Assembly (NCBI GenBank): GCA_031265105.1
Contig: JAISDC010000238.1
Location: 1 to 35,748, forward strand
Source: Verrucomicrobiales bacterium
GTDB lineage: Bacteria > Verrucomicrobiota > Verrucomicrobiia > Methylacidiphilales > JAAUTS01
DNA: 35,748 bases
Reading direction: 5' to 3'
Shown here: one piece after another, positions 8,614-33,585 of the stretch
Layout of the letters: the number at the start of each line of letters is the position of its first letter
Numbering within the stretch: the stretch's first letter is position 1
Position numbers and translations under genes: made by a program
Notes under the pieces: generated by a model
Databases searched by the model: none
Seen by the model: the letters and a program-made list of their open reading frames with translations, nothing else
Told to the model about the DNA's origin: nothing

Positions 8614-9936
8614 TTACAATCGGACTTGGCGACGGCGATAGATTGTCAGGCCGATCACGCCCAGGCCCGCGCCCAACAAGAACCAGGTGGACGGTTCCGG
8701 CACGGCGCTGGCGTTGAAGGTCAATTGACTCCCTTCTACGCTGAAGCTGCCTTGCAGGTCGGCGGACAGGTTGGTGGCGCTGAATTGGTCTTCGCTGATG
8801 GTGCCGCCGGTGACGGTCGCGTCGCTCCAGTCGAGTACTTGATAATTCCCGGTCTCGGTCAGGTTGCTGAAGTCGATGATGATGCCGTCGCCGATGGTGA
8901 TGCTGTCGGTGACCAGCAGTCCGTTGGTGTAACCGAGGATGGCACCACTGTCCAAGGTCAGGTTGTCCAAGGTACCGCCGCCGTGGAAGAGGGCGCCGGC
9001 GCCGAGGGTCAGGTTGATTTCGCTGTCGGCAGTGCGGGTGACGTTGCCGACGAGTTTGGTGCCCGCGTCGCTGAGGGTGATGCCAATGACCGCGCCGGTG
9101 GTGCCGCTGACGTTGCCGGTGATGACCGTGCCGTTGCTGCCGCTGAGGGTGAGCGTGGCGGCTTGGATGACGCGGATGTTGCCGGTGATGGTGTTGTGAT
9201 TCAGGTTCACCGTGGCGGTGCCGTTGGATCGGAAATCAAGCGCGTTCGCACCGGCACCAGTGACGCTGATGTTAGCGTCGGTCAGCGTCAGGGTAGAGGT
9301 ATTTAGGCTAGTGGTGATATTGATACACACGCCATGGGCGTCAATTCCCGTCGTCTCAATGTTCACGTTGCTTACCGTGCCACTGCCGGCCTCGAGGAAA
9401 ACAATCCCCGGCGCGCTGCGGCCTTTGGTGCTGATGTTGGCGCCGGTCAGCGTCAGGGTGGTGGCGGCAGCTTCCACCCGCACACCGTAGCTGCCATATC
9501 CTTCTGACTTAATGGTCACGTTGTTCAAGGTGCCGCTGCTGGCGTTGATGAGGTAAACCCCATGCCCGAAGCTGCCGCTGGTGGTGATGCTGCCGCCGGT
9601 GAGGGACAGGCTGGCACCGTTGTCAATATAGGCGCCATTGCCGATAGCGGTGTCGAGGGGGGTGGCAGCACTGTTGGTGGCGCTGAGGGTGATGTTGGTG
9701 CCGGTGTAGGTGACGCCGCTGGTGGTGACGTTCAGGGCCGACCGGGTGATGGTGTCGCTGTCGTCGTAGGATTTTCCCGACTCGGCGGTGTCTTGGGTGA
9801 TGTCGATGCTGGCGGCAAAGACATTCAACGCGGAGGCGCAAAGTAGCAACGCGCAAATACACGCGCGTTCCAGTGACTTTAGCGGAGCGGAACAAAGGGC
9901 GCCGAGGAGTAGGATTGATTTTAGTTTGGTATTCAT
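8614..9936 (-). CDS. Secreted repeat-rich (beta-helix-like) PEP-CTERM protein
   Basis: MNTKLKSILLL...SALNVFAAS signal peptide; C-terminus VPEPSTWFLLGAGLGVIGLTIYRRRQVRL; start moved in from 9987. Confidence 0.85.
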   Translation of the reverse strand: MNTKLKSILLLGALCSAPLKSLERACICALLLCASALNVFAASIDITQDTAESGKSYDDSDTITRSALNVTTSGVTYTGTNITLSATNSAATPLDTAIGNGAYIDNGASLSLTGGSITTSGSFGHGVYLINASSGTLNNVTIKSEGYGSYGVRVEAAATTLTLTGANISTKGRSAPGIVFLEAGSGTVSNVNIETTGIDAHGVCINITTSLNTSTLTLTDANISVTGAGANALDFRSNGTATVNLNHNTITGNIRVIQAATLTLSGSNGTVITGNVSGTTGAVIGITLSDAGTKLVGNVTRTADSEINLTLGAGALFHGGGTLDNLTLDSGAILGYTNGLLVTDSITIGDGIIIDFSNLTETGNYQVLDWSDATVTGGTISEDQFSATNLSADLQGSFSVEGSQLTFNASAVPEPSTWFLLGAGLGVIGLTIYRRRQVRL

Positions 9937-9979
9937 GTTGGTGGGTTCTATTGGGTTATTTCTGTTTGGTTGGTTGAAT

Positions 9980-10055
9980 GGCCACAAAAAACACAGAAAG
10001 CACAGAAAACAGCAGGTTTAACAAAGTTTTGTGTGTTCTGTGTTTTTTTGTGGCC
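9980..10055. repeat. Inverted repeat, ACACAGAAAGCACAG word family
   Basis: ggccacaaaaaacacagaaagcacag...gtgtgttctgtgtttttttgtggcc. Confidence 0.8.
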
Positions 10056-10177
10056 AATTTTGCTTCGGTTGGTTTGGACGCAAAAAAGGTACGCACCTTT
10101 CGGGAAAAAGTACGGATGAATCCGGGAACCCACCCCGTCTCCCCACTCCGCGCCGCTGACGCTGGCGAGTGGTATCC

Positions 10178-10490
10178 TACCACATGGGGAATGAAACGGG
10201 TAGATTTTGGCCGCGAAATTAGAAAATCAGGGCAAACTTCACGCCGTGAGCGCGTGAGCGCGTGAGCGCGTGAGCGCGTGAGCGCGTGAGCGCGTGAGCG
10301 CGTGAGCGCGTGAGCGCGGTGTACTTACGTTATGACTTATCTTGCTCATCTTCAGCGGGTTAGCGGGAGTTTACTTTGGCTTAGGCTACTAGGCTTTCTC
10401 GGTAGGTAGTAGGTAGTAGTTAGCAGTAGTTTTTCCCGATAACGGGATGGGATGATATGGAATCTGTCTGCCTGGCGCAAGGTTTTTTTT
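10178..10490 (-). promoter_or_regulatory. Conserved upstream module, copy 1
   Basis: Collinear similarity to 32305-32519: GATATGGAATCTGTC, TAAGTCATAA-GTAAGTACACC, 8-bp VNTR, TCTAATTTC, exact CATTCCCCATGTGGTA. Confidence 0.65.
10246..10317. repeat. Perfect tandem repeat, 9 x GTGAGCGC
   Basis: Nine uninterrupted 8-bp units. Confidence 0.95.
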
Positions 10491-16947: not shown

Positions 16948-17022
16948 CCTGGGAGCGCCGTCGTCCCCGACGGCTGGTTCACCTGCCAGGGTTAGTCTGC
17001 CGGCAAGATGCCGGCGCTCCCA
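16948..17022. repeat. CTGGGAGCGCCGG...CCGGCGCTCCCAG inverted-repeat element
   Basis: Related copies at 18443-18517, 18537-18650 and 18690-18745. Confidence 0.8.
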
Positions 17023-17048
17023 GTGATGCCGGCGCTCAGTTTACTTAA

Positions 17049-17166
17049 AGCTACATTAACGCAAAGGAACAAAGGAACAAAGGCGCAAAGTTTCTTTTGA
17101 TTGGTTGCTAATAAACAAAAAATCCTTCGCGCCTTTGTCCCTTTGCGCCTTTGCGTTAATGAAGCT
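17049..17166. repeat. CAAAGG-family inverted repeat
   Basis: agctacattaacgcaaaggaac...gcctttgcgttaatgaagct. Confidence 0.85.
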
Positions 17167-17173
17167 GGCTGCT

Positions 17174-17929
17174 TCAAACACTCTCGACGGTCAGGTGTTC
17201 GGTGCGGCGTTCGGTGACGATTAGTTTCTCGCTGGGCGCGCCGTAGGGCTGGTCTTTGACCAGGCCGCGGACTTGATATTCGCGGGTCTCCGGTTGGTCG
17301 GCGAGCGCTTGCGGGTCCGCCCACGGGAAGTGGGAGGCGATGTAGTTCGCGACTTTGCCACCGTTGATGCGCCGGTCGATGCTGAACATGCTGAAGCCGC
17401 CTTTGTGCAGGCGCAGTTCCAAATGTTGACCGTCGGCGGTTTTGTCGGCGCGCAATTGGAAGTCGTGATTCACCAAGTTGTCGCCGGGGGTGAGCGGGAC
17501 GAGGCCGCAGATGACATTGAGGTCGGCGGTCCATTTGGGGTCGGCCTGCAAGGCGGGGATGAGGACTTTGGTCAGCCAGGGGAGCAAGCCTTCGAGATAA
17601 ATCGTGGCGGTGCCGGTGAGCAGCGCGGTGCCGGCGGCATCCAGCTTGGGCATGGTGAGGCGGTTGGTGTAATTGCCGCGCGGGTAGCCCTCCATGAACT
17701 CGCGATAGGCGGCGGTCATGGCGGCGGAGAGGCGGCGCACGTCGAGCAGGGCGTCGTTGATTTTGACCAACTGCTCGCGCCGGGCATTGGCCTGGTCGAA
17801 CAGCTCCTTGGGGACGCTGGTGAAGGTGGCTTGGTTGTTATATACGTACTCCAGCAGGTTCAACGCCCAATGGTAGCGGGCGTCGGCGGTGGTGGGGACG
17901 TATGATGCGAATTGGTGGTGGGTATTCAT
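17174..17929 (-). CDS. Uncharacterised 251-aa protein, helical N-terminus and Fn3-like C-terminus; paired with 21-bp array 1
   Basis: Ends REYQVRGLVKDQPYGAPSEKLIVTER (Fn3 F/G-strand-like); AAGGA upstream of ATG; array immediately 5'. Confidence 0.7.
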   Translation of the reverse strand: MNTHHQFASYVPTTADARYHWALNLLEYVYNNQATFTSVPKELFDQANARREQLVKINDALLDVRRLSAAMTAAYREFMEGYPRGNYTNRLTMPKLDAAGTALLTGTATIYLEGLLPWLTKVLIPALQADPKWTADLNVICGLVPLTPGDNLVNHDFQLRADKTADGQHLELRLHKGGFSMFSIDRRINGGKVANYIASHFPWADPQALADQPETREYQVRGLVKDQPYGAPSEKLIVTERRTEHLTVESV

Positions 17930-18017
17930 AATTTAATCCTTTCGAGTAATAGCGTAAAGGGAACTGGCCGGCGCGTCAAGTGCGCTGGCAAATAAAAGTG
18001 GTGAGTTTTCCAGGCCA

Positions 18018-18416
18018 AACGGCGCACGGGAAGGCAGCACCAGTGCGCGGGAGCTTGTTTTCAGTGCGCGGAATAGCGTTTTCAGTGAACTGAATGTCAT
18101 AACCAGTGAACTGAAAATCAGCACCAGTGCACTGCACGGCGTTTTCAGTGCACTGGTAAGCATAATCAGCGCACTGAAAATCATCACCAGTGCGCGGGAA
18201 ATGAATTTCAGTGCACCGGTAAGCGCCGGCAGTGCACTGGTAACGATTTTCCGTGAGCTTAAAACGCTATGCAGTGCGCTGATAATGAATTTCAGTGCAC
18301 TGAAAACGATATGCAGCGCACTGGTTATGATTTTTAGTTCACTGGTTATGATGTTCAGTTCACTGGCAGCGGTTTTCCGTGCGCCGAAAATGAGGCGCCG
18401 CGCACTGGTAACGCTG
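18018..18416. repeat. 21-bp tandem array 1, about 19 units with palindromic core TTCAGTGCACTGAA
   Basis: Units 18039-18059, 18060-18080, 18081-18101 ... 18396-18416 at exactly 21 bp, no indels; degenerate unit at 18018-18038. Confidence 0.95.
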
Positions 18417-18442
18417 GCTAACCGGTACGCGACAGCGAGGTA

Positions 18443-18517
18443 CTGGGAGCGCCGGCTTCCAGCCGGCTGGTTCACCGGTGAGGGTTAGTCTGCCGGCAAG
18501 GATGCCGGCGCTCCCAG
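18443..18517. repeat. CTGGGAGCGCCGGC inverted-repeat element
   Basis: ctgggagcgccggc...gccggcgctcccag. Confidence 0.8.
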
Positions 18518-18536
18518 TTTAGACCCCGGCGGCAGC

Positions 18537-18650
18537 CCTGGGAGCGCCGTCGTCCCCGACGGCCTGGCGCGGCGCGCCGTGTCGCTACGTAGTCGGCATG
18601 AGGTGGGTCGGGGTTTGGCAGGGGCCGTCGGGGACGACGGCGCTCCCAGG
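18537..18650. repeat. Perfect 28-bp inverted repeat of the same family
   Basis: 18537-18564 is the exact reverse complement of 18623-18650; CGCTCCCAGG tandemly duplicated at 18641-18660. Confidence 0.9.
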
Positions 18651-18764
18651 CGCTCCCAGGAATATGCTATCTACTACCTACTATCTACCAGCCGGCTGGT
18701 TCACCTGCCAAGGTTAGTCTGCCGGCAAGATGCCGGCGCTCCCAGTGCTGACGCGGTTAACCCC

Positions 18765-32304: not shown

Positions 32305-32519
32305 ACAAAAAAACCCTTGCGCAAGACCGACAGATTCCATATCGTCCCCTCGTCAAATCGTCAAATTGCGTTAATAAAACTCGCTAAAGATGAGAACGAT
32401 AAGTCATAAAGTAAGTACACCGCGCTCACGCGCTCACGCGCTCATGCGCTCATTATGACTACTGCCCCGATACTCTAATTTCCCCGCCGAGTTTTGCCTT
32501 CTCCATTCCCCATGTGGTA
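32305..32519 (+). promoter_or_regulatory. Conserved upstream module, copy 2
   Basis: Same ordered boxes as 10490-10178 on the opposite strand. Confidence 0.65.
32422..32453. repeat. Tandem repeat, 4 x GCGCTCAY (reverse complement of GTGAGCGC family)
   Basis: gcgctcac gcgctcac gcgctcat gcgctcat. Confidence 0.9.
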
Positions 32520-32540
32520 AAACCTTGGCGACAGTCTCTA

Positions 32541-32771
32541 ACCTCTCCACGTCAGCGACCATTCTCACGGCAGGAGCAGTGCTTCCTACCTCGTGAGAGA
32601 CGTTTCGCACCCTGTGAAGTGCATTTCTCACCCCGAGAGATAGGCTTCTCTCCCCGTGAGATGCACGTCTCACCCCGAGAGATACGCTTCTCCCCTCGTG
32701 AGATTCCCGTCTCACGTCGAGAGATGCACGTCTCACAGCAAGAGATACGCCTCTCACCGCATGAGAACCCA
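32541..32771. repeat. 21-bp tandem array 2, about 11 units, core TCTCACCCCGAGAGA
   Basis: Units at 32562, 32583, 32604, 32625, 32646, 32667, 32688, 32709, 32730 and 32751, exactly 21 bp apart; degenerate unit at 32541. Confidence 0.93.
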
Positions 32772-32835
32772 CACCTTCGGCGGTCATCCCGCCACTCTTA
32801 ACCCTAAACCCAAACCATAAACCGAAAGTACCCAT

Positions 32836-33585
32836 ATGAATCGAACCGTAATCCATAACGTCAGCGTCAAAAAATACATCCACAAAACCTGGGACGGTAT
32901 TTATGACTTCTTCAACCAATACAGCGGCAACCTCGTCAATGTCCAAACCAAGACCGACCCCGGCCTCGCCGACGCCGACATTGCCAATGTTAAAGAAACC
33001 AACACCGCCTACGGCCAGTTAAACCAAGCCATCGTCGAGACCGAAAAACTCCTTACCGCCCTGCGCGCCTTGCGGGTACAACTCCTCACCCAGCAAAACC
33101 TCGATCCTGTCCACGTCCCCGTCATCCAATACCTCGTTGACCTATTAACTTCCATCGAAGGCAAACGCGGCGGCCTGCTCTGGCAAGAAGACCGCCTCAC
33201 CGACCGCATCTTCCGCAGCCCCAAGTGCACCCAGGAAGACTACAACCTGCTCGGCATCAACTACCAACCGACCCCAAAACCCGACCCCGCCAAATCCATC
33301 GGCCGCATCTACCCCACCTTCACCGGTGGCAGCGTAACAGTACATTGGACCCTCCCGCGCGGCCTCAGCGATTCCCGCGTCAGCCGCAGCATCAACCACG
33401 AAACTCCAGTGGTACTTTACCAAGGCAGCGAGAACCACCTCATCGACACCCACCCCGTCGCCCATCAAGCCCAAGTCTGGGCCTACACCCTCGAACCCCT
33501 CCTCCACGGCCAACTCTACGGCAAACCCATAACAGAAAAAATCATCGTCGGCACCGACATCGCCATCGAGGAAGAGAAAATCTAA
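32836..33585 (+). CDS. Uncharacterised 249-aa protein, helical N-terminus and Fn3-like C-terminus; paired with 21-bp array 2
   Basis: GGSVTVHWTLPRGLSDSRVSRSINHETPVVLYQG...VWAYTLEPLLHGQLYGKPITEKIIVGTD; array 64 bp 5'. Confidence 0.7.
   Translation: MNRTVIHNVSVKKYIHKTWDGIYDFFNQYSGNLVNVQTKTDPGLADADIANVKETNTAYGQLNQAIVETEKLLTALRALRVQLLTQQNLDPVHVPVIQYLVDLLTSIEGKRGGLLWQEDRLTDRIFRSPKCTQEDYNLLGINYQPTPKPDPAKSIGRIYPTFTGGSVTVHWTLPRGLSDSRVSRSINHETPVVLYQGSENHLIDTHPVAHQAQVWAYTLEPLLHGQLYGKPITEKIIVGTDIAIEEEKI

Follow-up and report, generated by a model that had tools for sequence, protein, structure and literature searches.

Iteron arrays and cooperative operator arrays consist of tandem sites about two helical turns apart (21–22 bp), and their word is private to the replicon or locus. 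The loci described here share the tandem 21–22-bp spacing and the private word with the iteron arrays of plasmid origins, but they are chromosomal and multicopy, and their sites are palindromic. Moreover, no Rep-type or other DNA-binding gene adjoins them, and nearly identical neighbour proteins have unrelated words. The search for a Rep initiator next to the array gave no Rep-family hit; the adjacent gene encodes a helical protein with a predicted fibronectin type III (Fn3) domain.

Type III toxin–antitoxin systems (ToxIN, CptIN and TenpIN) also have a repeat array directly upstream of a gene, with repeats that vary from locus to locus. However, a ToxN-type protein and an RNA pairing signature are missing here, the arrays have many more and shorter units, and the protein does not track the word. 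Members of both gene families described below were searched for a ToxN, AbiQ or CptN toxin, and no significant match was found in Pfam, NCBIfam or PADLOC. The REP/BIME elements with their RAYT genes are alike in having palindromic repeats in regular groups outside genes. Here, in contrast, the words are locus-private and not dispersed (22 of 24 were not enriched outside arrays in 0.99 Mb), and the family gene is not a Y1 transposase; Y1_Tnp matches occur elsewhere in the genome, and none of them is the family gene. CRISPR loci likewise have regular palindromic repeats behind a leader, but the present arrays contain no spacers: their units abut at 21–22 bp with few variable centre and linker bases, and no family gene is of cas type.

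Two loci and a decayed relative in the window

The window is the whole stretch of DNA analysed (35,748 nucleotides). Its locus 1 array, with the core TTCAGTGCACTGAA, lies on the minus strand (17976–18416) and comprises 19 clear units (18018–18416) and two degenerate ones at an exact 21-bp period. The first-pass annotation had described 19 units without indels at 18018–18416, a core that is a perfect palindrome in the best units, and 88 bp between the array and the start of a 251-aa gene. The array was reproduced exactly, although the phenomenon is larger than was claimed; a perfect TTCAGTGCACTGAA was present in the unit at 18291, and the gap between the clear array and the ATG was indeed 88 bp. 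As degenerate units run on towards the gene, the array caller counts 21 units (about 17976–18416), and with these the array ends 46 bp before the ATG. Each unit matched 11–18 of the 21 positions of the consensus TTCAGTGCACTGGAAATGATT. The self-identity of the array at lags 21, 42 and 63 was 0.62, 0.61 and 0.62 (≤0.325 in 1000 shuffles), and its dyad symmetry exceeded that of column-shuffled units (z=4.1). The 251-aa gene (17174–17929, minus strand) encodes a protein with a helical N-terminal part and a beta-sandwich C-terminal part, without a Pfam hit. Short dispersed repeats of the CGCAAAGGAACAAAGGCGCAAAG and GGGAGCGCCG...CGGCGCTCCCAG types were seen on either side of the locus (16980–17160 and 18440–18740).

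Locus 2 lies on the plus strand. Its leader (32421–32541) consists of an octamer tract (CGCGCTCA)n and the stretch TTATGACTNCTGCCCCGA..TTTCATTCCCCAT, which is common to other loci of the family. It is followed by an array of 11 units of the word TCTCACNNNGTGAGA at an exact 21-bp period (32542–32772) and by a 249-aa gene (32836–33585) of the same family as the 251-aa gene, with a helical and an Fn3 domain. The recurrence of the array–gene pairing with a different word, which had been noticed before, is therefore real. In an alignment of 28 leaders, the octamer tract and the conserved stretch upstream of the array were common to many. We infer that this stretch may hold a promoter; a sigma-70 promoter search near locus 2 gave no match.

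Downstream of locus 2, a gene for an exported repeat-rich protein (MNPKLKLLILSALSVSALNVLA...), of PEP-CTERM type by resemblance, runs off the contig (33807–35748, plus strand). Such genes with a PEP-CTERM-like start follow many of the family genes. This frequent position before PEP-CTERM-like surface proteins suggests, by inference only, a role in cell-surface control. A decayed related locus was found on the minus strand (10076–10318), with an octamer tract (10245–10318), a leader and an array remnant (GTACYTTTT word) but without a family gene. A PEP-CTERM-like gene lies directly after this remnant (8614–9987, minus strand).

A gene family accompanied by arrays

One profile recovered both the 251-aa protein (E=1.6e-77) and the 249-aa protein (E=2.7e-117), both of which were profile members. 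Direct searches with each of the two gave overlapping sets of paralogues. Judged by sequence, the two genes are one family (family 1), a kinship that the first-pass annotation had not claimed. Direct and joint profile searches found 44 matches, as full or partial copies, in the 3.0-Mb assembly of the organism itself. With the joint profile, 34, 17, 6 and 3 matches were found in the four other genomes of the genus, and 55 more genomes from the family and order had none. Among 388 genomes of the phylum, family 1 was found in the organism's own genome only. A narrower profile, chosen because the 19 proteins together were too diverse for a pattern scan, was run on 85,462 genomes (one per species); it gave 12 loci, all in the Verrucomicrobiota assemblies JAISBF, JAISCS and JAISGL. 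On these searches, family 1 was found only in this genus of uncultured Verrucomicrobiota and in one named Opitutaceae assembly; beyond the phylum, only close relatives were covered. Three guessed query proteins for other phyla yielded no usable relative, and two loci matched in this way were not family members. Similar helical and Fn3 proteins may also occur in Bacteroidota and Spirochaetota.

No member of family 1 had a convincing match in Pfam, PHROGs, NCBIfam or PADLOC, and sequence matches to the PDB were weak only. The predicted model of the 249-aa protein (mean pLDDT 80.9) showed a helical domain followed by a beta-sandwich, for which the best domain-level structure matches were Fn3 domains (e.g. 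6msv_C, TM 0.68 by target). The model of the 251-aa protein was weaker, with the same layout. Hence, the earlier label of an Fn3-like protein is supported by structure prediction at locus 2 and less firmly at locus 1. The proposed class of array-plus-effector loci stands as a class of arrays and genes of one family, while an effector function was not shown.

A 222-aa protein was found behind two sampled arrays; its 12 genomic matches make up family 2. Over the helical part, this family is remotely homologous to family 1 (hhalign probability 84, E 7e-6). Family 2 was found in the organism's own genome only among the 388 genomes of the phylum, and not in phages, plasmids or viral contigs. A literature search, which did not cover most subscription journals, returned no matching description.

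For 53 family 1 loci from several congeneric assemblies, up to 620 bp of upstream sequence was analysed with the array caller. It returned an array at all 53 loci, with a median score of 102 and a score of at least 50 in 51 of them. Control upstream regions (n=240) had a median score of 24 and a 95th percentile of 44, and most high-scoring controls were family arrays or codon-repeat genes. The modal spacing was 21 bp in 49 arrays and 22 bp in the other four, which belong to more divergent congeners (L031, L035, L040 and L049). Among 636 unit spacings, 582 were 21 bp, 50 were 22 bp and 4 had other values. For family 2, 21-bp arrays were present in all nine copies with enough upstream sequence, and most were clearly palindromic. 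The first-pass annotation had held that 21-bp periodicity upstream of many homologues, with locus-specific words, would support its claim. This was borne out: arrays of 21 bp, sometimes 22 bp, lie immediately upstream of homologues generally, their words are locus-specific, and control regions score low.

An unbiased sample of the genome (100 stretches, 0.99 Mb with the window) contained 43 regions with 21 bp as the strongest period and none with 20, 22 or 23 bp; heptamer or coding repeats account for some of these regions. When the dyad test was applied and heptamer repeats were removed, 23 symmetric arrays were left. Of these, 12 are next to a family gene and 6 are cut off by the end of a contig or lie close to it; the remaining 5 lack an intact family gene, and one of the 5 (L117) retains a gene remnant. 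A dispersed satellite beside unrelated genes had been named as the outcome that would refute the claim; with 12 of 23 arrays adjoining a family gene and 5 without an intact one, this was met only weakly.

Several arrays were seen in other surroundings. At L117 (6250–6879), the array adjoins an open frame in which no more than the first 21–25 codons of the family remain, i.e. a decayed member. The CAGTGCACTG core of locus 1 recurs in an array at L163 (4653–4945), which has no family gene and lies between a gene for an Xre-type helix–turn–helix (HTH) protein and one for an exported repeat-rich protein. Dyad-symmetric 21-bp arrays without a family gene also lie upstream of an esterase-like gene (L133, 7390–7558) and of xseB/dxs (L139, 17151–17453).

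Private words, symmetry and register

Almost every gene lineage has its own palindrome, and about 40 distinct words were found, for example TCTACCNNNGGTAGA, CTCTAAANNNTTTAGAG, ATCTGGCNGCCAGAT, GTAAAAGNCTTTTAC and TTTTGTCACGTGTAAAA. Between likely orthologues in G000 and JAISBF, the word was kept at 18–21 of 21 consensus positions. Paralogues with 92–96% identical proteins can bear unrelated words, with agreement at 10 of 21 positions both in the pair L010/L011 and in the pair L013/L014. The differences within each pair lie in the array (identity 0.27–0.33), the spacer and the first 30 nt of the gene, while the remaining gene is 0.92–0.95 and the leader 0.53–0.60 identical. The gene body or protein body can therefore neither read nor set the word. 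Outside arrays, the 22 words mentioned above were either absent from the 0.99-Mb sample or no commoner than expected, meaning that there is no wider regulon. Blocks of two to four repeat units (lags 42, 63 and 84) point to array turnover.

We compared the arrays of the organism's own genome with column shuffles: 20 of 21 were dyad-symmetric at p<0.05, the exception being L003. Both arms of the unit were conserved, and centre and linker varied. The relative entropy was 0.76 in the arms, 1.23 in the centre and 1.37 in the linker, and the entropy contrast of -0.56 fell to -0.01 after column shuffling. Conserved symmetric half-sites, a free centre and a fixed helical spacing, which together mark operators of dimeric proteins, were thus all present.

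Relative to the ATG, the dyad axes of family 1 arrays keep to a fixed 10.5-bp lattice (R=0.58, n=31, p about 3e-5). This p-value is optimistic because related loci are not independent. The register holds although the words and spacer sequences are unrelated. Either there is a constraint on phase, or the words changed in place and the register was inherited.

Possible explanations and their meaning

The best-supported mechanism, which we hold only tentatively, is a locus-private, cooperative multi-dimer DNA platform that controls the adjacent gene; its reader and function are unproven. On this view, the array would act as double-stranded DNA, a row of tandem sites with two-fold symmetry, one dyad per 21–22 bp (about two helical turns) and successive half-sites about 10.5 bp apart. 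A dimeric protein specific to the word of the locus would bind it cooperatively. Through the array, the neighbouring helical-Fn3 gene would be controlled in its expression, and at many loci the surface-protein gene that follows as well. What was observed are the arrays, the way they go with the family, the private words kept between species and the symmetric arms with free centre and linker; signs of RNA pairing or of a constraint on codons were not seen. The lattice of the dyad axes also counts in favour of the platform. Protein binding, the dimeric and locus-specific nature of the protein, regulation of the neighbouring gene and the promoter in the leader are inferred. Several points count against the platform. 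With about 40 distinct words, the same number of DNA-binding specificities would be required. No DNA-binding domain is recognisable in the neighbouring protein, nearly identical copies of which stand beside unrelated words, and no candidate reader was found by sequence. The near absence of the words outside arrays in the 0.99-Mb sample leaves no wider regulon. Moreover, the 10.5-bp register may be inherited and not selected, some arrays have no intact family gene, and the search near locus 2 gave no sigma-70 promoter. The HTH gene beside the L163 array was considered as a source of readers and rejected, as it has no expanded set of paralogues to supply them.

Three other mechanisms would place the function in the folded or translated array. 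In a structured leader RNA, which we consider improbable, a ladder of hairpins would regulate the downstream gene or be the RNA partner of its protein, as in type III toxin–antitoxin systems. The order of parts is alike (leader, repeat array, gene), each unit could fold into a hairpin, and the conserved leader makes a promoter upstream of the array possible. However, RNA stems tolerate G.U pairs, whereas over 58 arrays G.T mismatches (234) were about as frequent as A.C mismatches (222). Compensatory double changes were not in clear excess either (33 versus 23±4 and 23 versus 18.7±3.6 in the shuffle), and their Watson–Crick share was not above the shuffle. An early compensatory excess (100 versus 55) was within about 2.5 sd of the shuffle once related arrays and degenerate units were removed. 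Neither an Rfam match in the window nor a toxin family hit was obtained, and unrelated words stand beside nearly identical proteins. Slightly less probable still are extruded cruciforms or single-stranded hairpins recognised by their shape, so that any word works. One reader would then explain many words, and the mismatch types are symmetric, but the lack of clear compensation inside units applies here as well, and the arms are only 5–7 bp long. Least probable is a leader peptide or repeat protein, with 21 bp as a heptapeptide repeat. A sense frame was open in 37 of 40 independent 21-bp arrays (25.6±2.7 in dyad-preserving permutations), and the dyad axes of family 1 favour one codon phase. Yet open antisense frames were in similar excess in these 40 arrays (34 versus 22.4), stop trinucleotides were not depleted overall, and the open frame differs among loci without a common peptide. 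The equal variability of codon positions 1, 2 and 3 (1.01/0.99/1.00), the 22-bp arrays in congeners and the 1-bp shifts inside some arrays ruled against a heptapeptide-repeat coding sequence. The similar mismatch counts, the lack of clear compensation above the shuffle and the equal codon positions point to sites in double-stranded DNA more than to RNA hairpins or a peptide. Hence, of the three mechanisms offered at first, the DNA platform fits best, and the RNA leader and the leader peptide are disfavoured, though not excluded.

The main rival of the platform, unlikely in our judgement, is a self-perpetuating palindromic satellite carried along by duplication of the family. Unequal exchange would homogenise the units, and template switching between the arms (quasi-palindrome correction) would keep the symmetry, with little or no functional selection. 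The blocks of two to four units fit such turnover, as do mismatches without strand bias or clear compensation, words that are absent elsewhere, a register to the ATG that could be inherited, and the existence of orphan arrays. The satellite accounts less well for arrays that are retained at essentially every member, even though the members are deeply divergent and belong to two protein families, and for a period that stays at 21 or 22 bp, indels being few.

These paralogous loci are dispersed, each has a private palindromic array of strict spacing, and they fit none of the array-plus-gene systems tested. The arrays look like a new kind of DNA address system, whose reader has not been identified. 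It remains doubtful whether they amount to genus-wide 'addressed' loci, i.e. private multi-dyad addresses, tens per genome, that persist between species and change array-wide with spacing and register fixed. The reader would then have to be evolvable or sequence-agnostic, which sets it apart from known operators. For arrays that are read, it has to be explained how one cell tells tens of addresses apart, and how a whole array switches its word while keeping symmetry, spacing and register. Arrays that are not read would be a satellite of unusual order, on which ideas about the concerted evolution of palindromes can be tested.
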